Source: Parvularia atlantis
Lineage: Eukaryota; Opisthokonta; Rotosphaerida
Assembly (NCBI GenBank): GCA_943704415.1
Contig: CALSCO010001596.1
Span: 1 to 23,608 of the forward strand
DNA length: 23,608 nt
Direction of reading: 5' to 3'
Positions 56 to 23,608 of the stretch are shown piece by piece. The notes beneath the pieces were generated by a model, which was not told the DNA's origin, made no database searches, and saw only the letters and a list, made by a program, of their open reading frames with translations. Made by a program: the position numbers and the translations under genes. Positions within the stretch are counted from its first letter, which is position 1; each line of letters starts with the position of its first letter.

Positions 56-1026
56 ACGGCCGACATCGCGCGCCAGACCGTGCCCATCTACCTGCCGATC
101 CAGCTGACGTCACTAGAGTCGGCTACGACGCTCAAGACGCTCACAAGCCGCTTTGGCCAGGTGCGCGCGCGCACGCTCGCACCGTCGGCAGGCCGGCCGC
201 GCTGACGGCGGATGTGCTCAGGCGCGGCGGCACGCGATGGGTGCGCGCACGATCGGGTACGTGCTCACGTGCATGTACACGAACAAGATCAGGTCGTCGT
301 CGCAGCACTCGCAGCTGGTGCGTGCGCACGAACGAGCACTACCGCTTGTGGCGGTTGCGCTGACGTGGCCCGGGTCGGCGCAGCTGTGGCGCCTGTTCAT
401 GATGCACTTCTTCGGCCCCGCGTGCGTGATGACCCTTGCCATCGGCTGGCCCATCTGGAAGGCGATCAACTCGGCGTCGGAGCTGTCGACAACGTCGAGC
501 GCGGCGTACTACCTGCTGGTGCGCTGTGTGCCTCTCTGTCGCTGCGGAGGCCCCTGATGTCTAGCGCCGCAGACGATCATGAACGTGGTCGGTCTGATCC
601 TCGGTGTGTGCTCGGTCACGCTCATGGTCAACTTTTTCTGGATGAAGCGCCTGTACCTGCGGCAATGGCCGGCGGTGGTGCGCACGCGAGGCGTGCGCCG
701 CGTGCGGACGCCGTGCTGAGCGACGGCCCGCGTGCAGGGCGACATTCTCGGCTTCCTGTGCGCGCCCGTCACGACGATCATCTACATCTACATCCCCATC
801 CTCATCGCACAGACCGACCTGTTCTTCAAGGCACGCGCGCGCGAGGGCGTTCGTCGGCGTGCTGACGAAGTGCCGCGCGCGCAAACAGGACAATATTCCC
901 TACACCGTCGCCGACAAGCCGCAGTCGACGTCGTTCAACGGCACGCAGTCGCTGCGGCACCTGCAGGCGGCCAATGGGATCGGGGACTCGTCGACGCGGG
1001 ACGACTCGGCCTTCAACGAGGCCTGA
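56..1026 (+). CDS. Multi-pass membrane protein, 3' part only; possibly GT2-like
   Basis: I do not firmly recognise this gene. Six exons fit one protein: 56-160, 222-317, 384-518, 573-677, 738-830, 889-1026 (stop TGA), giving about 223 residues with the N-terminus missing. All five introns are phase 0. The protein has three or four strongly hydrophobic spans (around the residues encoded at 384-470, 573-650 and 738-820) and a hydrophilic Ser/Thr/Asp-rich tail of about 45 residues. The exon 1/2 junction reads FGQARRHAMGARTIGY, which recalls the QxxRW-type segment before the C-terminal membrane helices of some GT2 glycosyltransferase-like proteins, with His in place of Trp; this link is only a guess. 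The last intron (831-888) must use a GC donor. The fourth intron has two adjacent GT choices, at 675 and 678; I chose 678 because GTGCG is the local consensus. The 3' neighbour is convergent. Confidence 0.6.
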
Positions 1027-1269
1027 CCGCGCCACGCCGCCGGCCCGCCGCAAAGACGTTGCTTGGACCCTCTTCGGCCGCTCTGCCGGCTCGAGCCTTC
1101 GTTTCGACCCCTGCTCTCGCCGTCGTCGTCTCGTCGTCTCCCGCCCGTCGATCGTGCTCCTGAGCTTTCATGGCTGTGTCTGCCCTCGCGTGCGTGTGTG
1201 TGACATAGCCTCATCATCATCCGTCATGCCCTCGTCGCAATGTGCGCCGCGCAGACACAATGCAAGCGA
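1027..1269. other. Convergent intergenic region, 243 bp
   Basis: This stretch lies between two stop codons of converging genes. It should hold both 3' UTRs. I see no AATAAA-like signal, hairpin terminator or ORF supported by homology. Confidence 0.6.
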
Positions 1270-2200
1270 TCAGATCCGCACCTTGCTCTCGAAGCGGTAC
1301 CGCAGGTACCACAGCTGAAACACGGTCACGGCGACGAGCAGCGCCACCTGGAAGAGCGAGTACCACTGCACGCGCTCGTTGGTGCTCTCGGCGGCTGCGT
1401 GGTGACGCGCTCGTCAGCGCCGCGCGCCCGCACACGCAGAGGACGACGCACTGTCGCGGTGCGAGCGCTCGCGAACGCGTGCGTACTGCTGGTCGTCCTT
1501 GAGCGCGCGCAGGCTGTTGAGCAGCTCGACGATCTCGGCGTCGAGCGCTGTCACGCGCCGCGTCAGCCGCCCGCAGCGCTCGCCGCGCGCGTGAGCGGGG
1601 GCGGCCCGCACCCGCGTCGTCGCCCGACTGCGGCTTGGTCGTCACGCCCGCGCCGTCGTCGGCGAGGATATCGAACGTGACCGACTTGGCCGAGACGGTC
1701 GAGAAGTCGTTGATGAAGCAGTACTCGTACCTTGTGCCGGCCGCGAAGGCGGCTCAGCAAGCGCTTCGGCGGCCGCGAAGGGCGAGCGCGCACCGGCCGG
1801 TCATCTCGGCCACGAACGTGTACGTCTCGGCGCTCGAGCGGTCGACCGAGAAGCGCACCTTGCCACCGGGGTCCTTCATCTGCCCGCACCGTGCCCTCCG
1901 TCAGCGTCGCGGCCCGCCACCCGCCACTGCCGCCGCCGCCGCCGCCGCGCGTCACCTGGAACCCGATGTCGTGGTTGCCGCCGTCGCCGACCTCAAACGC
2001 CAGGCCGAACTTGCGCCCGTTGTTGAGGTTCTCGAAGAAGCACACGTTCTCGCTCGGCTCGAGTTTGATTGTGTACGCGCGCGCGCAGCTGGCGGGCGGG
2101 CGGGCGCCGTGTCAGCCCGGACGGCGCACAGGACGCGCGCCGCGGACCTCGCGACGAGCAGCACGAGCGCGAGCGCGACCACGGCCGTGCCTGCGCGCAT
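1270..2200 (-). CDS. p24/TMED (emp24/GOLD) family cargo receptor
   Basis: p24 proteins are type I membrane proteins that cycle between ER and Golgi in COPII/COPI vesicles and help load cargo such as GPI-anchored proteins. Six exons in transcript order: 2200-2148, 2088-1956, 1879-1794, 1730-1612, 1547-1452, 1394-1270; 203 residues, normal for the family. The signal peptide ends near ARA|YTIKLEP. The GOLD domain shows CFFENL, the DIGFQMKDPGG stretch and YEYCFINDFSTVS, with the two cysteines of the family disulfide. A coiled-coil-prone segment (EIVELLNSLRALKDDQQY) precedes TNERVQWYS and one C-terminal membrane helix. The cytosolic tail is short (YLRYRFESKVRI): it has an aromatic position but no C-terminal KKxx, so COPI retrieval would depend on a partner p24. 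Intron 3 ends in AAG rather than CAG. The start is fixed by the signal peptide. The PRA1 gene starts divergently 35 bp away. Confidence 0.95.
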
Positions 2201-2235
2201 CACTTCTGTCTGGTAATTACGCCACATTACACTGC
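2201..2235. promoter_or_regulatory. 35-bp divergent start region (TMED/PRA1)
   Basis: Only 35 bp separate the two ATGs. The stretch is relatively AT-rich for this window and holds two ATTAC elements 10 bp apart (within GTAATTACG and ACATTACAC). It must contain both 5' UTRs and cannot hold two ordinary promoters, so core promoter elements probably overlap the coding sequences. No TATA box is visible. Confidence 0.5.
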
Positions 2236-3319
2236 ATGTCGACCGCCACGCCACTGTCCTCCTCGGCGCTCGCCGCGGCCAATGAGCCGCTGCCGCTGCC
2301 CGTGACCGTCAACACGGCCGCGCTTGCGTCGTGGTGGCAGCAGCTGCAGAACCACTCGAGCGCGCCCGTGCGCGAGGTGCTCAACCGCCTCCGGTGCGTG
2401 CCCTGGCGGTTTTCGTTGACGCAAAGACCGTTACGACCCGCGGACGCGTGCGCGCGCGCCGCTGCGGGCCGCCTGCTGCTGCTGCTACTGCTGCTGTGCG
2501 GGCGGGCGTGCGGGCATGTCGGTGCCGTGTGCAGCGGGTGGCCAGGCGGCGGGGCGGGGCGGGAGGGCGTTGGCTGCCCTGCCACGTGTGCGTCTTGCTG
2601 ACCCCTGCGTGACAGGCTGGTCGGCGAGAGCGAGTACAAGACGCTGCGGCCATGGACGAGCTTCTTCGCGTACACGCGCATGTCGCGGCCGATGTGTGCG
2701 TGCGTGCGGGCGGGCGGGCGGCCTGTGTGGTCGCGCGTGTGAGCTGACGCGCGCGCTTCGCAGCCGTCGTCGACCTGCAGACGCGCGTCGTCAGCAACGT
2801 CGTGCACTACCGCACCAACTACGCCGTGTTCTTCTTCGTGCTCACGTTCTACGCCCTGTGCGTGCACCCTCTGCTCCCCCCTCACCGCGAGCCCGCGCGC
2901 ACTGACCCCCGGGCCCGTAGCATCTCCAACCTGCTCCTGCTCGCGTCGCTCTTGCTCGTCGGCGGCGTCTACTCGTACGTGCGTGCTTCGCCCGCGGCCG
3001 TGATCCATATGGGCAGCGTGCAGATGTCGCGCTCGCAGTTCAACGTCGCGTTTGCGCTCGGTGCGCTGCCGCATACCGTCGCACGGCTTGCATTGACACA
3101 CGCGAGAGTAGGCACCGTCATCCTGCTGTACGTGGCCGGCTTCACGGGCACGCTCGGGTGGCTCATCGGTGTGGGATCGCTGGCGATCGTGGGCCACGGT
3201 GCGCTGCCCGCCGCCAGCGCCTGCAGCGCGCCCGGCTGACCTGCCGCCCGCCCGGCCGCGCAGCCGCCTTCAGCGACCCCGCCCCACCCGAGACGATCCA
3301 GACGGGCGAGTTTGTGTGA
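2236..3319 (+). CDS. PRA1 (prenylated Rab acceptor / Yip3-like) family protein
   Basis: PRA1/Yip3 proteins are small ER-Golgi membrane proteins that bind prenylated Rab GTPases and affect their release from GDI. Six exons: 2236-2393, 2616-2695, 2764-2857, 2921-3060, 3112-3198, 3264-3319; 204 residues. The family core is clear: LRPWTSFF, then RVVSNVVHYRTNYAVFF, and two pairs of hydrophobic segments (AVFFFVLTFYALISNLLLLA and VGTVILLYVAGFTG with LGWLIGVGSLAIVG), giving the usual four-helix hairpin layout. The tail ends PETIQTGEFV. The first intron is 222 nt, the longest in the window, and carries CTG/GCT-repeat and GGGCGGG tracts. Exon 5 could start at 3110 or 3112 (alternative AG sites), which gives Val-Gly or Gly at the junction; I chose the TAG. 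It shares a 35-bp start region with the p24 gene, and both act in early secretory traffic. Confidence 0.93.
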
Positions 3320-3484
3320 CCCGGCGGGCCGCCCCGAGGGCGCGCACGCGCCGCGCTTCTGCCTGACCGCCGGACCCGCGCGTGTGCGCCTGCTTGTCTC
3401 TTCCTTCGTCTGTTGTGTCTGCCGATGAGCATCCGAGCGCATTTCCGGGACGCCGACAACGGGGCCGACAGGATGGGGCACGGG
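3320..3484. other. Convergent intergenic region, 165 bp
   Basis: This is the space between the PRA1 and TMEM14 stop codons and holds both 3' ends. I see no ORF, repeat or clear polyadenylation signal. Confidence 0.6.
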
Positions 3485-4026
3485 TCACTTGTTTTGCTTG
3501 AGGTAATACTCGAGCGCCGTCAGGCCGCCCACGGCCGCCGACAGCGTCGCGACCAGGCCCGCGGGCATGACCTTGCGCGTGCTCAGGTAGCGTTGGCTCA
3601 TGACGAGCGTGAGCAGCGACGTCGCGCCTGCACCGCGGTCAGCATCGCGCGCACGCAGGCCGGTCTCAGCCCGCACCGAGCGAGGCGTAGTAGCCGTTGA
3701 TGTCGCCCTGCGAGATGGCGTGGCCTGCCCCAGTAGCATCCGCGTCAGCACGGGCTGGGTGCCCCCCCCCCCCCCCCCCCCCCCCCCCGTGTCGCGGCGC
3801 ACCGGCGTAGGCGACGGCCGGGCCGATGACGAGGCCGGCGAGCAGCGACGGCAGGCTGCCCTTGCGCGCGTAGCCAAACAGGCCGCCGAGCGCGACCGTG
3901 CCGCCAAGCACGTAGTTGGCATTCATGGTCTGCGGCGCGGTGAGGGCGGGGAAGGCGCGCAAGCGAGCGAGGCGCACGCACCGCGTCCGGGTTGGCGCGC
4001 AGCACGTCACGCAGCTGCTGCTCCAT
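3485..4026 (-). CDS. TMEM14 family small membrane protein
   Basis: TMEM14 proteins are four-helix membrane proteins; animal TMEM14C acts in the mitochondrial inner membrane in porphyrin/heme handling, and other members are linked to plastid fatty-acid export. Four exons in transcript order: 4026-3982, 3929-3803, 3724-3677, 3627-3485; 120 residues, the usual size. Family marks are GGLFGYARKGSLPSLLAG near the N-terminus and MSQRYLSTRKVMPAGLVA followed by a last glycine-rich helix. Exon 1 adds MEQQLRDVLRANPDA ahead of a second possible start (MNANYVLGG, inside exon 2). I prefer the upstream ATG because its splice junction keeps the frame, but translation from the second is possible. Intron 2 contains a 27-bp homopolymer, G27 on the transcript. 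The substrate cannot be told from sequence. Confidence 0.9.
3762..3788. repeat. C27 homopolymer inside TMEM14 intron 2
   Basis: This is a run of 27 C on the plus strand, read as 27 G in the TMEM14 pre-mRNA. It lies inside a 78-nt intron between the donor at 3802 and the acceptor at 3725. Its exact length may be a sequencing or assembly artefact, as for any long homopolymer. Confidence 0.9.
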
Positions 4027-4158
4027 CGCTGTCGGCGAGCGAGGGGCCGAGTGAGCGTGCAGCGCGCCCAAAGTGGATCAAGTTGTGCGCACGCTGATCA
4101 GTACGGTTGACTTGAGCTTGACTTACCAATTGCGACCTGTACGACGACTCGGTGCACC
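4027..4158. promoter_or_regulatory. 132-bp divergent promoter region (TMEM14/ABCC)
   Basis: This is the shared upstream region of two diverging genes. It holds a direct repeat of TTGACTT (4107-4113 and 4118-4124) followed at once by a CCAAT box (4126-4130) on the ABCC side. The repeats lie about 35-50 bp before the ABCC ATG. CCAAT is the known target of the HAP/NF-Y complex; what binds the TTGACTT pair is not known from the sequence. Confidence 0.5.
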
Positions 4159-10513
<6,355 letters not shown>

Positions 10514-10589
10514 GGCGTGAGACACGAGGCGTACATATGCATGCGCGTTCTGGCTTTGGCTTTTCCTTTGCTCGCACAAGGGGGCTGGC
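10514..10589. other. Convergent intergenic region, 76 bp
   Basis: The ABCC and ERG5-like genes converge here with 76 bp between stop codons. Both 3' UTRs must be very short or overlap antisense into the neighbour. No polyadenylation hexamer is visible. Confidence 0.6.
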
Positions 10590-12484
10590 TCACTTGACCA
10601 TCTGCCGCTGCCGCAGCGTGACGAGCACGCCGTCCTCGGGGATCACGGCCGGGATGTAGCAGATCTGGTCGCTCTTGTTGGTCAAGTGGTGGTCCCAGTC
10701 CAGCAGGGTCGCGATCAGCGACACGAAGACCGTCAGGTGATTCATGGCGTACTCGCGCCCCATGCAGTAGTGCGCGCCCGTACCAAACGTGAGGAAGGCC
10801 TTGCCAAACCTGCGCACCCCGCGCCGGTCAGCGGCTGGCCCGTGCACTGGTGAGCACAGACGCACTTGGTGTCCTCGCCGCGCTCGGGCGAGAAGCGATC
10901 CGGGTCGAAGACGTCCTGCTGCGGGAAGCCGTTTTGCGTCGCGTGCCAGAGCGACGGGAAGATGATCGTGCCCTGCGGCACGGTGTAGTCGGGTGACAGC
11001 TCAAAGTCCTTGACGGCTGTGTGCGCGGGCGGCGTGTGAGCGCGCACGAGCTGCCGCGGCCCGGGGACAGCGCACCGATCTGCGGGATGTACGGCGCCGG
11101 CGGGCGGAAGCGCAGGATCTCCTTCACGACCTGGCGCGTGTACGTGAGCTTCTCGAGAACCTCGAACGTGATCGGATCGTCGTTCGGGCGGACGAGCTCC
11201 TGCTCGGCGCGGACCTTGGCCAGCACCTCCGGGTGGTCGGCCAGCAGCGCCACGCTCCAGATGAGCGACGACGTCGACGCGTCCTGCGACGCAAACAGGA
11301 AGTCCATTGTGACCTCGGCGACGTCGAGGTCGCTGCTGTGCGTGGGCGGCTCGGCGCCCTCGGCCGCGGCCTTGTCGATGCGCACGACGTAGTCTTCCAT
11401 CTGCACCGCGGCGCGGGTACGTCAAGTCCGCTGTCGCGGGTACGGGGCGGCTCAGGGGCGGCTCAGGGGCGGCGCGCACCCAAAAGTCGAGCAGGCACCG
11501 CGGCTGCTCGCCCGCGCGCATGCGGTGCTTGCTCTCGGCGGCAAATTGCACAAGGTACTGAACGATGCGCTTGCGCGACTGCACCGACGCGTGCAGCGCC
11601 GTGCCGGGCAGGTTGATCGGCATCGTTAGGAAGCCGTTGGTCATGGTAAGGTAGTGGTTGTTGAACTGGCGCGGGCGGGCGTGAGGCGGCGCTCAGCTGT
11701 GCGCACATGCATGCGCGCGCGCACACGCGCACACCTTTTCGCGCGTCATGTCGTCCAGGTACGGGCCCACGAAGACCTCGGACGAGGTCGAGATGTTGAG
11801 GTCGCGGATGAAGTAGCGCACCTGCTCGTTGTGCACGCCCTTGGCGAGCCTGTGGAGCGACGTGTCACGCTCGAGCACATGTGGCCCGGCTGCAGCCCGG
11901 CGCGCGCACCAGCTCGCGATCGCGTCGCGCGTCAGGCGCTCCTGGCTGGGCAGATACACGCCGAGCGCGCGGCGTGTGAACAGCGGCACGAGCGCCTTGC
12001 GCAGGGCCGTGTGCTCGGGCCCGTGCATGAAGGCGATGTTGCGCGCGCCGAGGATGGTCAGGGCGTTGGGGTGGAGGAACCTGGGGTGCGCCGGCGCGGC
12101 TCAGCGGTCGTTGCCCTGCGCTGGGTCGGACGTGACGCACATGCGAAACTCGTCTGCGTGGAGGATCTTGCGGATCTTGTCGACGTCGGTGATGTGCAGC
12201 ATGAACCTGCGGCCGGGCGGGCTGCGTGAGTGCCGCGCCTCATGACGCGGCCAGCCGACGCACTTGCCGACGATGCCCGTCCAGGCGACGGGGCCGGCCT
12301 GGGCCAGCTTCTCGTAGAAGCCGGGCGGACTCTGGACCATCTCGACGATGTTGCCGATGAACGGGTAGACGAAGGGCGAGCCGGGCAGGTGCTTGCGCTT
12401 GCGCCACAGGTCGAGCTGCTCCCACAGCGCGTACAGCGCCGCGAGGCCGCCCAGCACGGCCAGGGCCTGCAGCCAGAGCTCCAT
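10590..12484 (-). CDS. ERG5: Cytochrome P450, CYP61/ERG5-like sterol C22-desaturase
   Basis: ERG5 (CYP61) puts the C22-C23 double bond into the sterol side chain late in ergosterol synthesis, in the ER membrane with NADPH-P450 reductase. Eight exons in transcript order: 12484-12264, 12206-12141, 12080-11910, 11849-11735, 11665-11480, 11400-11076, 11016-10866, 10809-10590; 484 residues. An N-terminal membrane anchor (residues 4-22) is followed by LPGSPFVYPFIGNIVEM. Fungal ERG5 marks are LFTRRALGVYLPSQE and RDLNISTS; the I-helix reads FLFASQDASTSS (288-298), ExxR is E347-R350, and the heme loop FGTGAHYCMG has Cys427. The end (ICYIPAVIPEDGVLVTL) also fits ERG5. CYP710 of plants is the nearest alternative, but the CYP61-type stretches favour ERG5. 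Intron 4 carries a long alternating purine-pyrimidine tract and intron 5 a small tandem repeat. A (CT)n tract lies upstream. An Osh1-like sterol carrier is in the same window. Confidence 0.93.
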
Positions 12485-12571
12485 TTTTCTCGGCTGTTGT
12501 GTGGGCAAGGGTTTTTGCGTTTGTGTCAGCGTGCAGCGTGCGGGTGCAAGGCAAGCAGCAGCAGCGACACA

Positions 12572-12650
<79 letters not shown>

Positions 12651-12746
12651 ACCCGCGACCAAGGCGCGGGCTGACAAACCTGACGCGTGGCGCGATCCGC
12701 GTGCACTTTCCTTTTCAGGCAGGTTTATGTATACGCCACCTCTGCC
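12485..12746. promoter_or_regulatory. 262-bp ERG5 upstream region with (GA)n
   Basis: This region is upstream of ERG5 and downstream of the NOA1-like stop, both genes being on the minus strand. It must hold the NOA1 3' UTR and the ERG5 promoter. Its main feature is the (GA)n tract at 12575-12647. Nothing coding is supported; the Arg-Glu repeat reading frames across it are translations of the microsatellite. Confidence 0.6.
12575..12647. repeat. (GA)n microsatellite, about 36 copies
   Basis: This is a perfect 73-bp GA run. On the ERG5 sense strand it is a (CT)n tract about 91-163 nt before the ATG. CT-rich tracts are common in fungal promoters, so it may be a promoter or leader element as well as a variable marker. 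Confidence 0.95.
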
Positions 12747-14507
12747 TCAATAGTAGCGCGAGCGGGTCCCGCCTCGCTCGCGCGCGCCGCGCTTCGTGAC
12801 CTCGTACGGCAGCAGCGCGTCGCGCACGCCCGGCGCCAGCCCGCGCACCGTGCGCGCCGCGAGCTCGGCCGTCGCGCCGGGTGCCACCGTCAGTGCGACC
12901 CAGCCGAGCCCCGGGAAGACGACGTCGAGCGAGCTGACGGCGTCGCGGTCGGGCAGTGCGGCGGGCGGGCCGGGGCGCTCGGGCCCGCGCGCGACGACGG
13001 GCGTGGTGCTGTCGGCGAGCGGGAGGCGGTCGAGGACGGCGCAGAACCCGTCGTCGGCATCGGCGTCGGCGCTGACGCTGTCGGCGGCCAGTGCGGCGGC
13101 CGGTGCGGACTCGATCGCGCACGGCGGCCGGAGAAACAGGCGCCCGCGGTGGCGCGCGAGCAGCGCCGGAACGAGCTCGGTCGAGGTCGTGTGCAGCGGC
13201 AGGAGCGGCGAGGCGAGGACCGTGGCGAGCACGCGCGTGCCGGCGGTGGCGCGCACCACGTCGAGCTGCGCCAGGCCACCCAGCAGCAGCGAGCGCCCCT
13301 CGGCCAGGGCGTACGTGCGCGGCTGGAGCGTGTCCTGCGGCACGACGAGCTTGAGTTCGTCCGGGCGCAGCTGTGGCGCGAGGTGGTACTCGTAGAGGAT
13401 GCCGGGCGTGTCGTACAGGAAGCGGTCGCCGCCGAGCGGGAAGCGCACGAGGTTGATCGTCGTGCCCGGCAGGCGCGAGGTCGTCGCGGCACCGCGCGCG
13501 TTGATCTTGAGCCTGTTTGCGGCGACGCGCGCGGTGTCAACAGACGCTGCCGTGCGCGTGCGCACAACACGCACTTGGCCGTGAGCGCGTTGATGAACTG
13601 CGACTTGCCCACGTTGGTCACGCCAACGACGTACAGGTGGCGGTCGCCGCGCCACTCGGTCAGGCGCTTGACGAGCTCGTCCATGCCCTCGCCCGTGCGC
13701 CCGCTGCACAGGTGGATCTTGGCGCGCAGGTCTGGCAGCACCTCGCGCGTGTGCCGGTGCAGCCACGCGAGGATGCGCTCGCGCGAGGCGTCATCGGGCA
13801 GGAGGTCGACCTGTGTGCGCTGCGATCAGGGCGCAGCAGCGCGCAAATAGCGCGCGCGGACGCGCCTTGTTGGCCACGAGGATGACCGAGTGCTGCGGGC
13901 CGATCAGCCCGTGCACGTCCGCGATCACGCTCCCGGGGAAGTCAAGCAGGTCAGCCAGGAGCAGGACGAGCGCGGGCGGCTCCTCGCGCAAGCTCTTGCT
14001 TAGCACGCGCTCGAACGACTCGCGCGGGATGCCCAGCGGCAACACCTCGCCGTAGTGCCGGATGCGGAAGCAGCGCTGGCACACGACAGGGCCCTTTGCC
14101 CGCGGCTTGAGGCTCGCGGCCGCGTCCTTCTTGGTCGCGGTCTCCACGGCGGCATCGGCAGCGGCAGCGGCGGGCTTCGTCTTGGGCGGGGCGGGCGGCG
14201 CGGCCGGTGCGGCCGGTGCGGCGGCGGCGGCAGCAGCGACTGGCGTGCGCTTCTCGGCGGGCACGTAGCCGGGCGCGCGCGGGTCGTCGCTCTGGAAAGT
14301 GCTGCCGCAGCCGCTGCACCGAGCAAGCTCGGGCGCCATGAAGCGCGGGGCGCGATGCGTCCGGGCGCGGGCGGGCGCGGGCGCGGGCGCGGCGGCGGCA
14401 GCCGAGGCCATCGTGCGCGCCGCCGCCGCCATCGCCACGACGGCGCCCGTGCGCAGCAGCAGTGCGCGCGACAGCACGGTCGCGCTCTGTCGAGCAGATG
14501 CGCGCAT
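12747..14507 (-). CDS. NOA1: NOA1/YqeH-type circularly permuted GTPase, likely mitochondrial
   Basis: YqeH/NOA1 GTPases help assemble the small ribosomal subunit; the eukaryotic form works in mitochondria. Three exons in transcript order: 14507-13866, 13810-13575, 13512-12747; 547 residues. The N-terminus is rich in Arg, Ala and Ser without acids (MRASARQSATVLSRALLLRT), a good mitochondrial presequence, which supports this start. A four-Cys zinc finger follows (C64xxC67 and C143xxC146), its halves split by an Ala/Pro-rich insert. The GTPase motifs come in permuted order: G4 NKVD (214-217), G5-like CSGRTGEG, G1 GVTNVGKS (277-284), G2 region with TTSRLPGTT, and G3 DTPG (327-330). The G4 motif is cut by intron 1, which uses a GC donor (13865). 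The C-terminal domain has Ala/Asp-rich low-complexity parts. Only 15 bp separate this start from the stop of the upstream B-box/NHL gene. Confidence 0.92.
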
Positions 14508-14522
14508 AATGCAAAGTTACGC

Positions 14523-16487
14523 TCACTGGCCCACGACGCGGTGCCGGCTGTGGTCGACCGCAAAGAGCATGGTGCAGTCGGGCGTGAGGCAGCACGCGCC
14601 GTAGCCGTTATTGAACGCGGCCGGGGCCCAGCGGTGCACGAGCTCGCCCTCGGGCGTCCACGCTGAGATCGACTTCTCCTCCGTGACAATGACCGTGCAG
14701 GCAAACTGGTCGTAGGCGACGCCGCTGGGCTGGGACATCTGCGCCTGCGTGGGCATGTTGGGCGCGGGCAGGATGCGCACGCCCCTGCCGTCCGCGGCCG
14801 AGAGCACCTGGACGCGGCTGCTGTTGCGGTCGCAGACGAGGATCTCGTCGCGGTCAGGGATGAAGGCCATGCCCATGGCGTACTTGAAGTTGTCGGCCGA
14901 GCGCCAGCGTACGGTGTTGCTGGGCGTGATGCACACGACGCTGTTGTCGACGTACAGGCTCACGACGAGGTCGCCCGACGGGAGCACGAGCACGCCGTGC
15001 GCCTTGGGGCAGACGATCTCGCGGATCGTCGTCAGCGTGCGCACGTTGACCTGGCGCACGCCCGTGTTGTACATGGCCACCCAGACTTGGTCGGGCGCGT
15101 CAGTTGTGGCCAGGCCGTAGACAAAGTCCTCCATCGGCACGAGCCGGAGAGGGTTACGGTCGAGGTCGAACAGCTGCAGGCGCTTGTTGAGCTGATCGCC
15201 GACGACGAGCTGCGGCACGCCCTCGGCCGTGTGCATGACGGCCACGCCGATCGGTTGCTCGAAATCGCCCAGGCACTTGCCCGGCGCCGGCGTGGACGCG
15301 CCGATCGTCCACGCCGGCACGTCGCTGCCCATGCGCGTGTAGTCGCGCGGCTTGAGCGGGCGGCGCACCGCCCTGAGCGCGCCGAGCTCCTCGATCTCGG
15401 TTGTGAGCAGGTCGGCCGGGCGCGCGAGCACGAGGGTGTGCGCGGTCGCCGCGGCGGGGGCGCTCGGGTACGTCTTGTCGAGGACGCTGTTGAGGCGCGC
15501 GAGCAGCCGCAGGGCCGACTGGATGTTGCGCGGCAGGGCCACAGCCGCGGGCGTCTGCGATCTCTGCACGAGCTCGTTGAAGGCGTCGTCGAGCTCGGCC
15601 ATGTGCTGCACGGCCATGTAGAGCGTGTCGTGGCCCTCGTGCGCGTTCTTGAGCTGCGCCAGGCCGACCCCGCCCGCGTCGCGCACGAGCTGGTCGCGGC
15701 GGCGCTCAAGGCGTACGATGACCGCGTGGAGCTCGCGGATGAGCGTGTTGAAGGCCTCGCGCACGCTCAGGCGCGCGTCGTCGCGCCACTCGCCCACGAC
15801 CTTCTTCATGTGCACGAAGGCGTCGAGGTTGCCGCGCAGGACCGTCACGCGCTCGCGCATGCCGCCGACCTTGGTCCGGACCTGCTGCACGAGGCTGTCG
15901 AGCGCCTCGGACAGGCGCAGGAGCTCGTGGCCGCAGTGCTTCGCCAGCACGCAGTCGTTGCACACGGGCACATGGCAGCCCTGCGTGACGCAGAAGGCGA
16001 ACGCGTCGCTGCCGTGGTCGCGGCAGCGCCCCTCGGCGCCGCCGGGCACACGCAGCAGCACGAGTACGTGGTCTTTGTACTTGCGGTGGCGGCTGTGCGC
16101 GTCGGCCTGTGTCTTGCACATGTGCTCGTCGCACGCTGGGCAGCGCGCGACGGCGGCGTGGGTCCTGCCCGTGTCGGTCTCGGGCTCGCACACGTCGCAG
16201 TCGGGCGCCACCGCGGCGGCCGCCCACGCGTCGCCGTCGGCCTCGGCGCTGGCCGGCGGCTGCGGCGGCGGCTGCGGCTCGGCCTCGGCCGTCGTGAAGG
16301 GCGCGTTGCAGCGCGTGAGCAGCTGGTCGTAGGCGAAGAAGCAGGCGCGCTGCTGCACGCCCGGGTCGTGCACGCACGCGCGGCACATCAGGTGCAGACA
16401 CGGCAGCTGCCACGGCGCGTGCTCGTCCTCGTCAAAGTCGCACAGGCAGAGCGAGCAGACGCGGCGCTGGTCGACCAGCACCTCCAT
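14523..16487 (-). CDS. RING-like, B-box, coiled-coil, NHL-repeat protein (TRIM-NHL-like), intronless
   Basis: A single 654-residue open frame without introns. The N-terminus has a RING-like site: C11xxC14, then CLHLMCRAC (C30, H32, C35, C38), but the last Cys pair is spread (C49, C60) and lacks CPxC, so ligase activity is uncertain. Two B-box-like zinc sites follow (CDVCEPETDTG...CPACDEHMCK; CRDHG...CNDCVLAKHCGH), then a long helical stretch rich in Arg/Glu/Leu that fits a coiled coil (about 200-340), and a C-terminal beta-propeller of NHL type (about 410-654) with blades such as QPIGVAVM, HGVLVLPSGDLVV, YAMGMAFIPDRDEILVCDR and QPSGVAYDQ. In animals such proteins are ubiquitin ligases or RNA-binding regulators; here the target is unknown. 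The frame extends 78 codons further upstream, but that part looks random and overlaps the divergent ELMO gene, so I start at MEVLVDQ. Confidence 0.88.
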   Translation of the reverse strand: MEVLVDQRRVCSLCLCDFDEDEHAPWQLPCLHLMCRACVHDPGVQQRACFFAYDQLLTRCNAPFTTAEAEPQPPPQPPASAEADGDAWAAAAVAPDCDVCEPETDTGRTHAAVARCPACDEHMCKTQADAHSRHRKYKDHVLVLLRVPGGAEGRCRDHGSDAFAFCVTQGCHVPVCNDCVLAKHCGHELLRLSEALDSLVQQVRTKVGGMRERVTVLRGNLDAFVHMKKVVGEWRDDARLSVREAFNTLIRELHAVIVRLERRRDQLVRDAGGVGLAQLKNAHEGHDTLYMAVQHMAELDDAFNELVQRSQTPAAVALPRNIQSALRLLARLNSVLDKTYPSAPAAATAHTLVLARPADLLTTEIEELGALRAVRRPLKPRDYTRMGSDVPAWTIGASTPAPGKCLGDFEQPIGVAVMHTAEGVPQLVVGDQLNKRLQLFDLDRNPLRLVPMEDFVYGLATTDAPDQVWVAMYNTGVRQVNVRTLTTIREIVCPKAHGVLVLPSGDLVVSLYVDNSVVCITPSNTVRWRSADNFKYAMGMAFIPDRDEILVCDRNSSRVQVLSAADGRGVRILPAPNMPTQAQMSQPSGVAYDQFACTVIVTEEKSISAWTPEGELVHRWAPAAFNNGYGACCLTPDCTMLFAVDHSRHRVVGQ

Positions 16488-16553
16488 CAGTGAAGCCTGA
16501 GTGAGCGTCACTTCAGCCGGAGCCAAGCGGGCGCACTCGAAGTTCGCGCCGTC
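16488..16553. promoter_or_regulatory. 66-bp divergent start region (NHL/ELMO)
   Basis: 66 bp separate the start of the B-box/NHL gene from the first of two adjacent ATGs of the ELMO gene. It must hold both 5' UTRs. No TATA or CCAAT box is visible. Confidence 0.45.
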
Positions 16554-18428
16554 ATGATGCGTGCCCCGGGCACGCGCGACGACGCCGTGTCGCTGCGCGA
16601 GGCCAAGGCGCGCGTGCAGCATGAGATCGAGCTGCAGCGCGGCCTGCTGGAGCAGTTTGACCGGTGCGCGCGCGTGTGAGCCGCGGCAGGCCCGGGCTGA
16701 CGTGTCCTGCGCGCGCGACACAGAGCTGATGCCGAGGGCACCGCGGCTTCAGACGTCACGGGCGGCGAGGACCCGGACCGGTGGTATGCGCGCGAGACGG
16801 CCAAGCTGGCGCGGGTGCGTGCACCGCGGGGGGCCTGTGCGCCCAGCGACGGCCGACCGACTCGCATGCAGCTCAAGGACGAGCAGTACCAGCTGCGCCT
16901 GCGCGGCGGAGAGTTCTACGTGCGCAACCAGAGCGGCGTGGGCATGATCCTCGAGGTGGCCGCGTCCGGGCGCATCACGCTGTACGAGCAGCCGGCCGAG
17001 GCTGCGCGCGAGCGCTCCCGCTCGAGCGTCTCGGGCAGCACCGCCGCGATGCTCCTTAGCAACCCGCCGCTCGTCCTCACGCCCGCGCTCGGCCTGCCGC
17101 CGCCGCAGCAGCAGCGCGTTGCGCCGGGGCTCACGCCGTCGGCCTCGGTGCTGTCGATGTTCGCCACGGTGGACGCGTCGACCGCCACTGCAGCAGATGC
17201 CGCGGCCGAGGGCGCCGGGCCGACGAGCGCGAGCGCGGCGCGGCTGTCGGGCGTGACGTACCGGTGCGAGTGTGCCTGCGCGCCTGCCGGACCCGTGTGT
17301 GCTCACGCGGCGTGCGGGCGCGCAGCAAGCCGTCGCTCGTCGTGTACATCAACTCGCTGCTCAAGGTGCGCCCCGTTGAGACCGCCGGCGCGGGCAACTC
17401 GGGCACGGGCGCGCCGTCAGGGTGCGGGCGCGTCGACACAGTGGTGTTTGGCTGCTGAGCGCGCTTCACAGGCTGTACGACCGGCTCGTGCGGCTCGACT
17501 TCAAGAACGGGTCCATGGCGCTTGCGGTGACCGACGCAGAGGAGCTGCTGCGTGCGTCGCCGCCGTGCCGTTTGCGCGTGCGCCGCGCCTGATGCCGCTT
17601 CGTGCCCGCAGAGGTGCTCGGCAGCCACCTACTGCGCTACAACCATCACAAAGTTAACCAGGTGCGTCGCGCGCTCGGCGGTCGTCTGGCGCGACTGACC
17701 CTTCACGTGCAGATCCGGCGCCTGGTCGAGCTGCACGAGCTCAAGACTACGCCGTTCAGCCGCTTCTGTTCGCACCACGAGCTGCTGCTGCACCGGTTGT
17801 GGGCCGCGCTGCTGCCCGGCGAGCCCGCCGAGCCGCGCATCTCGGAGCGGTGGAAGCTGCTCGGGTTCCAGGTGCATTGCGCGCCATCCTGCGCGGTGCC
17901 GCGCTCATGCAGCGCACCGGCAGTCCAAGGACCCGAGCGCGGACCTGCGCGGCATGGGCATGCTCGGGCTGCACACGCTCGTGTACTTTGCCGAGACGCA
18001 CACGACGCGCTGCCAGGAGATCGCGCTCGGCCACCGGCCGTACCCGTTCGCGGCGGTCGGCATCAACGTGACGCAGATGTGCTGTGCGCTCGTGAGCCTG
18101 ACCGACGGTGCGCGGCTGCTGCGGCGTGCCGGTGCAGGCCGGCTCACGCGCGCCCGCAGACGTCGTGCGCCTGCCGCCGTCCGACCCCAAGTGGGGCACG
18201 CCCGCGCTCACGTTCCTGAGCTACGTCGAGAATGAGAACGCGTTCGAGGAGCTGTTTTGCGTCGCCTACGAGCTGCTCGACCTGGTCTTTGTGCGCCTGC
18301 ACGCCGAGTACATGGACTTCCCGACCGTCTACGACCGCGTGCAGCAGCAGCTCAAGGACATGCTCGAGCGCTCGCACCCGCTCTCGTTCCACGAGCTGCG
18401 CGGGCTGGTCGACTGGACGGTGGCCTGA
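16554..18428 (+). CDS. ELMO-domain protein with N-terminal coiled coil
   Basis: ELMO-domain proteins act on small GTPases: ELMOD types are GAPs for Arl2/Arf, and ELMO/CED-12 types work with DOCK exchange factors. Nine exons: 16554-16663, 16724-16814, 16872-17263, 17326-17421, 17472-17551, 17612-17661, 17713-17871, 17924-18107, 18160-18428; 476 residues. The first 40 residues can form a coiled coil (SLREAKARVQHEIELQRGLL). A conserved-looking block follows (QYQLRLRGGEFYVRNQSGVG), then an Ala/Ser/Pro linker. The ELMO domain covers about 274-450: RISERWKLLGFQ, DPSADLRGMGMLGL, HTLVYFAE and YPFAAVGINVTQ are its core, and it ends with a helical tail (AFEELFCVAYELLDLVF). The usual ELMOD GAP Arg may lie in DLRGMG, but this needs an alignment. 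Two ATGs stand in tandem (16554, 16557). The fourth exon runs to 17421 rather than 17352, because only that donor keeps the frame of LYDRLVRLDFKNGS. Confidence 0.9.
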
Positions 18429-18514
18429 CTGCGGCGCGGGCACGGCGGCCCTGGCGGGCTGTGTACGTACGACGGCGGGCGGCGCGACATGATCACACAC
18501 AGAGGCCGGTCAGC
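18429..18514. other. Convergent intergenic region, 86 bp
   Basis: 86 bp between the ELMO and NECAP stop codons hold both 3' ends. I see no clear signal. Confidence 0.55.
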
Positions 18515-19762
18515 TTAGAACGTCGTCCAGCCGCTGAAGCCGGCGCCGCTGCTGCCGCTGCCCGCGCTGCCGGCCGGGGCGGCCGCGGGCGCCTGGAAGT
18601 CGTCAAAGTCCTCCCAGCCCGCGCTCTTCTTGGCCGGCGCGGCGGCGGCGGCGGCGGCCGCGGGTGCGGATGCGGCGCTGGGCGGCGCGCCGAGACGTGC
18701 GCCGGGCGGCGGCGGGAAGAACGCGGCCGCGCTGGCGGCAGCTGCATGCGGTGCTTGTGCGCGTGTGTCAATGGCCTGCACGGGCGGCAGCACGCGCAAC
18801 GCACGGGCGTCGGCACGCGATGCGGAGGACGACGCGGCTGGCTTGGCACCCGCGCCGAGCTTGATGCTGATCGTCTGACCCTGCGCAGCCCTGGCACGTC
18901 AGCGTGTGGCGCGCACCAGCGAGCAGCACCCCACCTCCTTCAGGCTAAAGTCCTTGCGCGGCTGCTTGTCCCACTCCTCCAGGCGCTTGGCGGCCTCCTT
19001 CTCGGCGTTCAGGTGCCTGTTGCGGCGCGGTCAGCGGCGGCCAGGGCCTCCAGCGGGCACGCGCGCACTTCTCAAAGTCCTGCAGCGCGACGTTGAAGTC
19101 GAACGCCTGCGAGCGCTCCTGGAAGCCGACGCCAATAAACGTGTGCTGGCCTGCGACGCGCGCGGGCGCAGGTTGGCACGCGGTGAGGCTCGTCGGCGGA
19201 GAGGGGCGCGCACCGCGGTCGTTCTCGATGCGCACGACAAAGTAACGGCTGCTGTCGAGCACGGGCTCGACCGAGTTGTCGTTTTTGTTGTAGCGGCACA
19301 TGGCGAACAGCTCGCCTGGCGCAGGCGTCAGTGCCTTTTTTTTTTTTTTTTTTTTTTTGCCGACGTGGCACGCGCGCGACCGCACCCGTGTTGGCGTCCT
19401 CGAGGCGCACGAAGCACTGCGGGCCAAGGCCGACAACGCGCAGGCGGCCCTGCCACACCCACCTGCGCGCGCACACACGCGTGAGCGCCCGAGCGGGAGG
19501 GGCGCAGGCGGCGACGCTTACGAGTTGAGGTCCCAGTCGGTGGCCCTGCGCGCGGCGGCTCAGCGGCGGCGGACGAGGGGGTGCGTGCAACTCGCGCGGC
19601 ACGCACTTGTAGCCCTTGCTGCTGGGGCGTGGCGGGATCTTGTACACGTACACCTCGCGCACGAGGAGCAGGGTGCGCTCTGCGTGCGTGTGGCGTGCCG
19701 CGCGTGAGCCGCCCAGACGACCGGGCGCTGCGGAGCACGGGTCACGTGCCGTAGTCGGCCAT
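18515..19762 (-). CDS. NECAP-like clathrin/AP-2 accessory protein
   Basis: NECAP proteins bind AP-2 on clathrin-coated pits and help control its activation. Eight exons in transcript order: 19762-19750, 19679-19607, 19545-19522, 19462-19386, 19315-19214, 19150-19069, 19016-18935, 18880-18515; 272 residues. The N-terminal PH-like domain matches the family throughout: VYVYKIPPRPSSKGYKATDW, GRLRVVG, VRLEDANTGELFA, VLDSSRYFVVRIEND, FIGVGFQERSQAFDFNVALQ, and KEGQTISIKLG. The C-terminal half is Ala/Pro-rich with PPPPG and two WxxF-type AP-2 motifs, one acidic (WEDFDDF) and one at the very end (GWTTF), as in animal NECAPs. Exon 1 has only 13 coding bases, and its intron uses a GC donor (19749) inside CACGTG. 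A further 75-nt intron (18816-18742) is possible; it keeps the frame and would give 247 residues. Intron 4 holds a T23 run (plus strand). Divergent from the Osh1-like gene by 24 bp. Confidence 0.95.
19336..19358. repeat. T23 homopolymer inside NECAP intron 4
   Basis: A run of 23 T on the plus strand reads as A23 in the NECAP transcript, inside the 70-nt intron 19385-19316 and 7 nt before its CTGAC branch-like site. An exact length should not be trusted without good reads. Confidence 0.9.
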
Positions 19763-19786
19763 GGTGGGTTTTGCGGGTTTGGTGCT
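19763..19786. promoter_or_regulatory. 24-bp divergent start region (NECAP/Osh1)
   Basis: Only 24 bp lie between the two ATGs. The plus strand here is made of G and T except two C, a strong strand skew. A palindromic CACGTG (within GTCACGTGCC, 19741-19750), the core bound by bHLH factors such as Cbf1, sits just inside the NECAP gene across its first exon/intron border and may serve both genes. Confidence 0.45.
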
Positions 19787-22700
19787 ATGTCGGATGCGAC
19801 GGTGGAGCTGCTCGCGGCCGTGCGCGAGGGCTCGGCGGCGCGGCTGCAGCAGGCGCTGGGCGAGGCCGCGCCGGGCGTGACCGACTGGGACCGCGTGTGC
19901 CGCTACGGCACGGCGCTGCACATGGCCGCGTACTTTGGCCAGGCGCACCTGGTTAAGCTGCTGCTCGACCACGGCGCCGACATCAACAAGCGCAACAGCG
20001 AGGGCACGCCGCCGCCCGCGCGCCACTGCGGCGCCCTGCTCAACGCACGTGCGCGCGTGCACGCAGGCGACACGCCGCTGCACAAGGCCGCGCTCACCGG
20101 GCGGATCCCCGTGCTCAACCTGCTCCTGCGCCACCCGGGCGTGGACCTGACGGCCGAGAACAAGGAGGCCCAGTCGGCGCTGGCCGTGGCCAAGAACCGC
20201 GAGGTGGCGCTGGCGATCGAGCGTGCGTGCGCCGCGTGCATGGCAGCGCCGCGCCGGCCCTGAGCCGCCGTCGACGCAGAGGCGCAGCAGGCGTACGTGG
20301 AGGACGTGGGCAAGCAGCTGCTCGACGCCGGCCGCGCGGGCGACTGGCCACGCGTCCACGCTATCCTGCGCGGCAGCAACGCCAAGCTGCTCAACGTCAA
20401 CCTACAGGACCGCGTCAGCGGCAACACGCTGCTGCACTACGGTGCGTCTGCGTCCGCGCCCGCGCGCACGCCGCGCTCGGCTCATGCACGGTGTACGCGA
20501 TCTAGCCGCGATGGCCGAGCAGAAAGAGATTGTGGCACAGCTCCTGCAGCAGGGCGGCGACGCCGGCGCGGTCAACCGCGACAACAAGACGCCCGCCGAC
20601 GTCACGCGCCACGAAAACATCCGCCTGCTTCTGCAGAACGCCGGCGCGAGCAGCGACGCCCTGCCGTCGCCCGAGCTGGTGCAGATCCAGGGCCATCTTA
20701 TGCGCTGGGCCAGCTACGCGACAGGCTGGCGCAAGCGCTACTTTGTGGTCGAGAACGGTGCGCCGGGCGTGGTGGCACAGTGCTTGCCTGACACGCAGCA
20801 GGCATGCTGTTCCTGTACAACGCCGCGAGTGAGATCAAGGACGGCCCGCGCGGCACGATCCGGCTCGCCGGCGCGACGATCCTGCCCGGCGACGTACGCT
20901 GCCTGTGCCTGCAGGGCCGTGCGTCTGACGTGCTGAGCCGCGTGCGCCCAGAGCGACCCGCGCGTGTTCACCGTGCGCGGCCGCAACGGCACAACGCACC
21001 AGCTCCGCGCCGAGAGTGACAAGGAACGCGCAGTCTGGCTCAAGCACCTGACCCAGGCCGCGCGCACCGACGCCCCGGTGGTGTGCTGCGCGCGTGGTGC
21101 ACCACGCAGAGGGCTGGTGGCTCAAGCGCGAGTGCAGAAGCGCCGCGCAAACGCCGACGGAGAGCCCAAGTTTGAGCAGCCGGTCGACGTGCTCATCACA
21201 AGCCTGCGCCTGCAGCGCCAGTCGGTCGAGAAGCACCTGGCCGAAGCCAAACTGCTGCTGGCGGGCGACGAGCGGCTGGCGCAGCTCGGGTGCGGTCGGA
21301 CGTGTCTAGCGGCGCCGCGGCTCACGCCCGCTCGTGCTCTCCTTCGCCAGCACGCACCTCAGCACGTCCACGACGACGATGCTCGACACAGTCGCGACGC
21401 TCGTGCGCACGGCCGAGGAGCGCGGTGCGTGCGCAGTGGCGCTCTGGTTGAGTCTCGCGCCGGTTCACCCGCGTGCGCTTGCAGTCTCGTTCTGGCAGAA
21501 GCGGTTCGAGCGCGCCGAGCGCCAGCGCGAGTTGCTCGAGGAGTCTCTCAAGCTGCTGGCCGTGGAGCAGAGCGAGCTTGAGCGGCACGGTGCGTGGCAC
21601 GCGTCATTGTTGCGCGGCTGGCCCTCCTTTCCGCCGCGCCCCTTGTTTCGGCACACTCCAGCACACGCTGACGGTCCATCTCCGCGCCATGCCGCGCATG
21701 GGCTGGACGCGCACAGCCGCCGATATGCTGCGCTCGCGCAACCAGCTGTCGCGCACGAGCACGACCGACTCGGGGCCACCGCCCAAGGACGGGCACGACG
21801 ATGACGACCAGTTCTACGACGCGCCGACCGAGCCCGACACCTCCGTCGCCGTCGCCGTCCCCCGCACCACCAGTGGGGGCAGCGGGGGTAGCGGGGGCAG
21901 CGGGGGCAGCGCGGGCGCCAGTCGCAACGCGACGACCGTGACGGGTAGCCGGGCCGGCAGCGCGAACGGGGCGAGCGGGCCAGCAAGCGGGTGCGCCGTG
22001 CGGCCTGCGCCGCAGCGTGCCGTGTGCTGACCACGCCCCGTCGCACGCAGCGCCGTCACGCACCGCGTCAAGCTGCCGGCGCCGATGAAGGACCGCAGCG
22101 AGATCAGCCTGTGGACAGTGATCAAGGTGCGGCGCCCGGCGGGCATGCGAGGCGCGAGAGCCGACGCACACGCTTGCTGCAGGAGTTTATCGGCAAGGAC
22201 CTGTCCAAGATTGCCGTGCCGGTGTACTTCAACGAGCCGCTGTCGTTCCTGCAAAAGTTCGCCGAGGACCTCGAGTACCACCAGCTGCTGGAGCGCGCGG
22301 CGAGCGGTGCGCCCGGGGCGCGCCCCGGTCGAGCGGTGCTGACACACGCGGCCCGTGCCCAGCGCCGACCTCGCTCGAGCGCATGCAGTGGGTGGCCGCC
22401 TTCGCCATCTCGCCGTATTCGTCCACGACGCGCACGGCCAAGCCGTTCAACCCGATCCTGGGCGAGACGTTTGAGATGAAGCGCGACGACTACGGGTACC
22501 GCTACTTTGCCGAGCAGGTGCGGCCGAGGTACTGTGTGTGTGCCGCGCGGTGCCGTGACACGCGCGCGCACGGCCAGGTGTCGCACCACCCGCCCATCTC
22601 GGCGTGCGTGTGCGAGGGGCGCAACTACACGTACTGGGCTGAGGCGCACATCAAGAACCGCTTCATGGGCAACGTGCTCGAGGTGCGCGCCCGCCACGTG

Positions 22701-23557
22701 CGTGCGGTGATGGCGCGGCTGAGCCCGGCACAGGTGTACCCGAGCGGCTCGTTCCACGTGCTGCTGGGCGCGAGCAAGGAGCACTTTGTGTGGCACCGCG
22801 TCAAGACGGTCGTGCACAACCTGATCATCGGGTCGGTTTGGGTCGACAACATGGGCGAGATGCTGATCAAAAACCTGACGACGGGCGAGACTTGCTTGCT
22901 GGACTTCAAGCAGCGCAGCTGGTGGGGCAAGAACTACGCCGAGATCGAGGGGCTAATCAAGGCGAGCGCGCACGCGCCGCTCTGCCGCCACCGCCGCTGC
23001 CGCTGACCCGCCGGTGCAGAGCCCGGCCGGCCAGCCGCTCGTGCGCATGAGCGGCCAGTGGAATAACCACATCGAGAGCGTGCCCGTGGACGACTCCGGC
23101 AAACCCGCGCCCGGCGCTACGGCCAAGGCATGCGCGGAGTCTTTTTTTTCTTCCCGCGCACGCGCTTAACGGGTGGGCGTGCGGGCAGATGCTCTGGCGG
23201 CGCAACCCGATCCCGCCCGAGAACGCGCGGTACTACAACTTCACGCAGTTCTCGATGGAGCTCAACGAGCTGCTGCCGGATATGGAGGGCCACATTGCGC
23301 CGACCGACTCGCGCTTGCGGCCGGACCAGCGCGCGATGGAGAACGGGCAGCTGGTGCGCCTCCGCGGCCTGGCTGCCCGGCCTGCGCTGACCTCGCGTTG
23401 CCGCGCGCAGGACAAGGCCGCGGCCGAGAAGCTCCGGCTCGAGGAGAAGCAGCGCAAGGCGCGCAAGGTGCGGACCGAGCAGGGGCGCGAGTGGTCGCCG
23501 CGGTGGTTCCGCCAGGACGTCGACGCCGAGTCGGGCGAGACGTGCTGGCTGTACAAG
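19787..23557 (+). CDS. Osh1/Swh1-like oxysterol-binding protein (ankyrin-PH-FFAT-ORD), 3' end cut
   Basis: Osh/ORP proteins exchange sterol and PI4P between membranes at contact sites. Eighteen exons are in the window (906 residues so far): 19787-20003, 20067-20222, 20280-20441, 20506-20757, 20802-20893, 20952-21077, 21138-21289, 21351-21424, 21485-21589, 21717-21990, 22051-22126, 22183-22306, 22363-22517, 22578-22682, 22734-22961, 23020-23127, 23189-23353, 23411-23557. Domains: ankyrin repeats (about 30-125 and 165-225; e.g. [20 protein letters not shown]), PH domain (238-335; [17 protein letters not shown]), a coiled coil ([19 protein letters not shown]), a FFAT-like ER anchor (QFYDAPT, 477-483, after four Asp), a Gly-Gly-Ser repeat linker (498-510), and the ORD from about 538 with [32 protein letters not shown] and the EQVSHHPP signature (654-661). 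Three introns use GC donors (20004, 22962, 23128). A final donor at 23558 starts an intron that leaves the window; only the last residues should be missing. Confidence 0.95.
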
Positions 23558-23608
23558 GTCGGCTCTGGCGCACCTGCGCGGCCCGCGTCTGTGGCTGACG
23601 CGGGGGGG
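23558..23608 (+). other. Partial intron at right edge
   Basis: It starts GTCGG after a complete codon of the Osh1-like gene and contains CTGAC near the end of the window, so the acceptor should lie just beyond the edge. Read-through in frame is possible but would leave the family match. Confidence 0.6.

Follow-up and report, generated by a model that had tools for sequence, protein, structure and literature searches.

GC-AG introns in the window

The stretch analysed here (the window) is an entire contig of 23,608 bases (C390 in our numbering) of the Parvularia atlantis assembly, which comprises 16.25 Mb in 616 contigs at about 70% GC. Five of its eleven genes contain introns that appear to begin with GC instead of GT. 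These GC-AG introns are probably of an ordinary kind at unusual abundance, for which a few GC-rich algae provide precedents. Genes in the window were named from Pfam or PDB matches (p24, PRA1, TMEM14, P450, ELMO, NECAP and NOA1) or by their homologues (ABCC and Osh1), and the partial gene 1 had no Pfam match.

Genes were modelled with a purpose-written semi-Markov gene finder, which was self-trained with GT donors only at first. The first training set of 172,712 bases consisted of the window plus 149 kb of genome (stretches L002-L010 and L013-L024). Twenty stretches were sampled from contigs C1-C10, and five further 10 kb stretches were added later. Contig C3 (24% GC, probable mitochondrial DNA) and L001, which repeats the window, were excluded from training. 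GC content was 0.67-0.71 across the listed 10 kb nuclear stretches. GT-only training gave 774 introns with a median length of 58 nt, the donor G/GTGCGY (the slash marks the exon-intron boundary) and the branch motif CTGAC or CTCAC. This donor differs from the GTRAGT consensus of animals, fungi and plants.

In the window the GT-only finder built 10 models. One joins NOA1 to its neighbour, and splitting it by hand gives eleven genes. With this split, the eleven genes and the five with GC introns agreed with the first-pass annotation. GC was read at all 12 donor positions listed there, and all 12 were recovered by a GC-aware, self-trained finder with a learned GC class. Five doubtful calls were dropped (GC at 12742, 14314, 16497 and 20989, and GT at 14487), leaving 89 GT and 12 GC introns, i.e. 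12 of 101 compared with the earlier count of 12 in about 98. All 12 have the GC-AG form, the 3' AG being imposed by the finder. Their median length was 59 nt, against 58 nt for GT introns, with branch motif and length built into the model.

Table 1. GC-AG introns of the window and the named genes that contain them.
Feature	Position	Strand	Gene or context
GC-AG intron, phase 0, 58 nt	831..888	+	gene 1, partial; called in three runs; AAG/GCACGC
GC-AG intron, phase 1, 63 nt	4793..4855	+	ABCC transporter; profile rank 1/130
GC-AG intron, phase 0, 58 nt	5102..5159	+	ABCC; profile rank 1/190
GC-AG intron, phase 0, 57 nt	7451..7507	+	ABCC linker; weak
GC-AG intron, phase 0, 71 nt	7782..7852	+	ABCC variable region; GC-aware finder call
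GC-AG intron, phase 0, 60 nt	8399..8458	+	ABCC; profile rank 1/88
GC-AG intron, phase 0, 53 nt	8929..8981	+	ABCC; profile rank 1/111
GC-AG intron, phase 0, 55 nt	13811..13865	-	NOA1/YqeH GTPase; splits NK/VD
GC-AG intron, coding phase 1, 70 nt	19680..19749	-	NECAP, MADY/ERTLLL; called twice; weak
GC-AG intron, phase 1, 63 nt	20004..20066	+	Osh1-type protein, NSEG/DTPLH; profile rank 1/96
GC-AG intron, phase 0, 58 nt	22962..23019	+	Osh1 ORD; seven-homologue rank 1/250
GC-AG intron, phase 0, 61 nt	23128..23188	+	Osh1 ORD; seven-homologue rank 2/118
ABCC (MRP-type) transporter gene	4159..10513	+	39 introns, 6 GC-AG; homologues and model
Ankyrin-PH-ORD (Osh1/ORP1-type) gene	19787..23608	+	runs off contig; 3 GC-AG introns; homologues
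NOA1/YqeH-type GTPase gene	12747..14507	-	start uncertain; 1 GC-AG intron; hand-joined protein
NECAP (DUF1681) gene	18515..19762	-	1 GC-AG intron

Tests by homology and decoy donors

For each intron of the ABCC and Osh1 genes, all alternatives that kept the frame, whatever their donor, were ranked against profiles built from 108 and 120 homologues, respectively. Six of nine GC introns ranked third or better, compared with 34 of 47 GT introns. At the five sites that ranked first (4793, 5102, 8399, 8929 and 20004), the best GT alternative scored 8 to 48 bits lower. The difference was 19 bits at 4793, 10 bits at 5102, 9.9 bits at 8399 and 8.0 bits at 8929, where the first-pass annotation had noted a GT alternative, which lies at 8935. 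The test resolves about one codon and does not fix the donor dinucleotide itself: the best other donor followed 0.5 bits behind at 4793, the best donor that was neither GT nor GC 1.6 bits behind at 5102, and the runner-up with a different dinucleotide 6.7-7.2 bits behind at 8399, 8929 and 20004. The intron at 20004 also ranked 1/95 pairwise against P0121, a database protein.

The profiles failed at 22962 (rank 82/251) and 23128 (66/119). Against seven homologues hand-chosen by the analyst, the best GT alternatives were 36 and 17 points lower, respectively, and against P0121 alone the two introns ranked 2 and 13/118. At 13865, splicing restores NKVD within a YqeH/NOA1 match (PDB 3h2y, E 5.4e-56). 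The evidence is weak at 7451, in a variable ABCC region (rank 2/243 by profile, 130/242 pairwise), and at 19749, where the junction lies 4 residues from the N-terminus and the match of the spliced protein to NECAP2 starts at residue 2. The intron at 7782, also in a variable ABCC region, ranked 65/131 by profile and 67/130 pairwise. Profile ranking was thus unsuited to variable regions, having failed at 7782, 22962 and 23128, and pairwise ranking failed at 7451 and 7782. Homologues support 8 of the 12 junctions, the exceptions being 7451, 19749, 7782 and 831, the last in a gene with no Pfam family.

It had further been predicted that a finder restricted to GT would break all five genes. Instead, the GT-only run left all five open and made local errors. 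A nearby GT donor was substituted at 11 of the 12 sites, the intron at 20004 was retained in frame, an extra intron was added at two sites (4722-4792 and 19619-19662), and the NOA1 model ran on into the neighbouring gene, which also happened with GC allowed. Since the GT-only parse closes too, frame closure was rejected as proof of GC introns, and the evidence is homology and donor context. GT-only annotation of this and comparable genomes would add or drop residues at a considerable minority of junctions with frames intact, so that such errors would pass unnoticed.

When all 16 dinucleotides were allowed as donors, with a prior of 1% for each except GT, the finder called 694 GT introns, 47 GC introns and 103 introns with the other 14 dinucleotides together (1-13 each). 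Some of the 47 are doubtful, e.g. 12742 in the window and a shifted call at 4805 that stands for 4793. A matched test with ten decoys, equal bonuses, matched flanks and a leave-one-donor-out score (dS) was run on an enlarged set of 190,306 bases, which included L025-L031. At dS>4 it gave 45 GC, 12 CG and 14 CC introns, and 6-10 for the remaining eight decoys. At dS>6 there were 33 GC introns, five of them in the window, against 5 for CG, an equally common dinucleotide, 6 for CC and 1-6 for the other eight. The 12 window donors scored dS 2.6-16.5 under a frozen GC model, which still made three of the doubtful calls at dS 0.4-2.2.

The frozen model was also applied to a held-out set of 50,000 bases. 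With GC flanks it found 13 GC introns at dS>4, compared with 1-6 for each of 14 decoys (mean 3.1) and 232 GT introns, and at dS>8 it found 6 compared with 0-3. With GT flanks, 9 GC introns were found at dS>4, 7 of them preceded by AG, compared with 1-5 for the decoys (mean 3.2). The excess of GC donors therefore recurs in held-out sequence, less clearly at strict cut-offs.

Outside the window 28 GC junctions scored dS>6, and for each of them the GC-spliced and the GT-only segments were both run against Pfam; the GT-only segment was the parse that the finder scored best, not the one that homology would favour most, and in some segments the two versions differed at more than one place. A match with E<1e-3 spanned the junction in 10 of the 28, and the GC version was preferred in all 10, by 2.8-39.5 bits; the other 18 had no spanning match at this threshold. 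The scores in bits for the GC and GT-only versions were 147.1 and 130.9 for APS_kinase, 47.9 and 40.6 for PigN, 44.5 and 41.7 for FANCI_S2, and 75.1 and 70.3 for PMT_4TMC. Two junctions each were spanned in HSP70 (23.4 vs 19.5; 77.1 vs 51.8), GTP_cyclohydro2 (62.4 vs 47.9; 31.4 vs none) and PALP (83.5 vs 44.0; 75.7 vs 46.9).

At the matched thresholds GT introns numbered 312 (dS>4) and 201 (dS>6), and subtraction of the CG decoy gave GC shares of 9.6% and 12%, respectively; at dS>2 the share was 5.8%. The held-out set gave a share of about 4% or more, before any correction for sensitivity. Self-training the GC class to convergence yielded 139 of 831 introns (17%), a figure not accepted as an estimate, since decoy classes respond in the same way. 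Among the introns predicted in about 240,000 of the 16.25 million bases, the GC-AG share is estimated at about 5-12%, far above 1-2%. The GC-AG introns passed most of the tests run, recur genome-wide and exceed the usual level of about 1%, whereas the proportion of one in eight falls at the top of the genome-wide range.

Donor context, U1 pairing and rival explanations

The donor context was read from the 47 GC introns of the search that used GT-trained flanks, and the decoys came from the same search and were treated alike. The GT-trained flank model carries a slight preference for A at -2 and a penalty on A at +3, decoys included. The context from the GC-flank search was not relied on, since those flanks were learned from GC introns and the result is circular. 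A was present at -2 in 77% of GC, 33% of GT and 33% of decoy introns, at +3 in 34%, 4% and 6%, and at -3 in 49%, 24% and 25%. The exon ended in AG in 32/47 GC introns, compared with 132/694 GT introns and 18/103 decoys, and 35/47 GC introns were in phase 0, compared with 338/694 GT introns. In the window, AG preceded 10 of 12 GC donors and 14 of 89 GT donors (p=5e-6), and A followed at +3 in 9 of 12 and 2 of 89 (p=5.5e-9). Nine of the 12 are in phase 0. In the 201 GT introns that scored highest, AG preceded the donor in 36/79 of phase 0, 0/90 of phase 1 and 0/32 of phase 2, and this confinement can explain the phase bias of GC introns.

The predicted median energies of the U1 duplex in the window were similar, -3.4 kcal/mol for GC and -4.0 kcal/mol for GT donors (p=0.26), because GC donors pair more elsewhere: U1 pairs outside +1/+2 averaged 4.50 in the 12 GC donors and 3.76 in the 89 GT donors (p=0.005). 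Placing T in the GC sites is predicted to give -6.1 kcal/mol, and placing C in the GT sites -1.7 kcal/mol. The U1 gene starts with AUACUUACCUGG, a canonical 5' end, and U6 has an ACAGAG box.

We propose, with a probability of roughly 78%, that the GC-AG introns belong to the ordinary U2 type and owe their unusual abundance to extreme genomic GC bias. U1 pairs with donor positions -3 to +6, so that C at +2 costs one pair. Donors in this genome may have drifted to G/GTGCGY, and where AG closes the exon (usually in an AAG, CAG or GAG codon, phase 0) or A stands at +3, pairing could be strong enough that a change of T to C at +2 is tolerated and the intron is still spliced. The change would be supplied by GC-directed mutation or gene conversion biased the same way, and surplus U1 pairing would set where it is tolerated. 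We infer that the introns are spliced in the cell, that the change ran from GT to GC and that its cause was mutational. The genetic code and GC-rich codon use would then place the pairing surplus mostly in phase 0.

Several results weigh against this proposal. No dinucleotide is commoner than GC, and relative to its background occurrence it was called in the 16-dinucleotide run at 0.30, below AA, AT, TA and TT (0.41-0.50), whose rates are high because they are rare and so receive larger log-odds bonuses. In the held-out set with GT flanks, GC, CT and AT reached 4 each at dS>6 (others 0-3), and at dS>8 there was 1 GC intron and 3 with AT (others 0-2). The genome share is soft, as 11 self-trained decoy classes also swelled to 7-19% (60-154 introns). 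Outside the window, an OTU match (L021) that ends before the junction scored 17.1 with GC splicing and 20.5 in the GT-only version, and one L005 segment had weak matches only in the GT version (best E 0.039). The window donors 19749 and 20004 lack the preceding AG. The search for further U1 copies scored only 41 of 149 candidates. In human and mouse, donor scores are on the whole weaker for GC than for GT (PMC7242645), and Micromonas RCC299 (64.1% GC) has 2.7% GC-AG introns but Micromonas pusilla (65.9% GC) 22.2% (PMC3033335), a contrast which indicates that GC content alone is insufficient.

Freedom to use GC, the commonest dinucleotide, could let a human or machine gene finder rescue frames, and the introns would then be annotation artefacts. 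There is a precedent in Heterorhabditis, where GC-AG introns fell from 8.9% to 0.8% upon re-annotation (PMC5906903), and the swelling of self-trained decoy classes, the parity of CT and AT with GC in the held-out set and the four GC calls in the window that look false all point this way. Nevertheless, we consider artefact very improbable, because matched decoys stay far below GC at dS>6 and in held-out sequence with GC flanks, decoys of the same search show no context enrichment, and Pfam prefers the GC version at every spanned junction. Sequencing or assembly errors, with T read as C at +2, are harder still to believe. Errors would show no preference for donors with a preceding AG or A at +3, and would not yield GC at 10 of 24 AG-preceded donors and 2 of 77 others in the window.

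A different kind of explanation is that recognition itself has changed, with a variant U1 or an altered U1 snRNP (U1C, LUC7 or base modification) relaxing position +2 and GC donors forming a functional second class. The coherence of the GC class, with its exon-side AG and A at +3, would fit this, and for algae whose U1 has a consensus 5' end Iwata and Gotoh allowed for a role of RNA modification or U1 proteins (PMC3033335). However, the single U1 found (41 of 149 candidates for further copies scored) is canonical, and surplus pairing by itself fits the donor pattern. A U1 5' end with A7 changed to G had 2 exact matches in the whole genome, with about 2 expected by our own estimate and 0 for the reversed control; neither has an Rfam match, and the variant was rejected. 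LUC7 matches were located in the genome, and nothing on LUC7 donor classes appeared among the literature matches listed. We regard altered recognition as unlikely. A more novel reading, which we regard as possible but doubtful, is a stable second donor class, [AC]AG/GC[AG]CG, evolved independently in an opisthokont outside animals and fungi and largely in phase 0 by codon use. GC makes up 10/24 of AG-preceded donors in the window and 32/164 in the genome sample. If this were true, the coding sequence of the exon would in effect decide the permitted donor dinucleotide.

Two observations concern the splicing signals more broadly. C stands at donor +4 in 85% of GT introns, where dinucleotide bias would give about 66% by our arithmetic, and a C at +4 can form a base pair neither with U1 nor with the ACAGAG box of U6. 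Loss of METTL16 was rejected as a cause, as a PF05971 match is present (L027); this family also matches in bacterial control genomes. The only U6 gene found (L004:1501-1662, + strand) has about 48 extra bases between ACAGAGAAGAUUA and GCAUGG, whose ends fit neither GT-AG nor GC-AG and which could be an intron, an expansion or an assembly fault.

Related systems and other features of the assembly

Ordinary GC-AG introns of animals (0.98%), fungi (1.01%) and plants (1.49%) are of the same U2 type and several times rarer (PMC7072748). The novelty implied by the first-pass annotation is less than suggested, since GC-rich genomes with 7.7-56% GC-AG introns have been published (PMC3033335, PMC4028052). 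Aureococcus anophagefferens (39.6%), M. pusilla (22.2%) and Chlorella sp. (7.7%) resemble Parvularia, which has a very GC-rich genome and many predicted GC-AG introns, and the putative U1 of Aureococcus and M. pusilla has a consensus 5' end, as here (PMC3033335). These algae belong to another lineage, and their shares come from transcript mapping, whereas ours come from sequence alone; the present analysis adds the compensation on the exon side and at +3 and a decoy-controlled share. The cause of the abundance in two GC-rich algae was termed an enigma (Iwata and Gotoh 2011, PMC3033335), for which Parvularia would provide an independent case and a simple, testable rule: C at +2 is tolerated given surplus U1 pairing elsewhere.

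Emiliania huxleyi is likewise GC-rich, its GC-AG introns are missed by default finders, and its authors cite base composition; unlike the predicted share here, its share is far higher (56% of 241 manually mapped junctions) and RT-PCR proved 9 GC junctions (PMC4028052). Globodera rostochiensis is, like Parvularia, an opisthokont whose GC introns default annotation misses, but its genome has 38.1% GC and its lower share of 3.46% is supported by RNA-seq (PMC4901422). Within the excerpts of open-licence literature searched, no opisthokont was found whose reported GC-AG share still stands at more than 5%.

In an Osh1 tree of 30 rows, rooted for drawing only, the window protein pairs with P0121, and both fall outside the sampled Fungi, aphelid and Holozoa. 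The lineage is likely an opisthokont near the fungal-animal split.

Among the many-intron genes of the window stands an intronless one, a single open frame at 14523-16487 (- strand), which reads as a TRIM-like RING/B-box/NHL protein. Runs of C, G, GA-repeat and T occur at 3762-3788, 7790-7803, 12575-12647 and 19336-19358, three of them inside introns, and are possible spots of sequencing length errors. The excluded contig C3 (L011 and L012; 15.6 kb) carries nad4 by homology and reads as mitochondrial, with apparent nad1 and rps12 genes and an unassigned open reading frame of 1139 amino acids. The proteins closest to its nad4 are metagenomic, and a mitochondrial rps12 would be unusual in a fungus.

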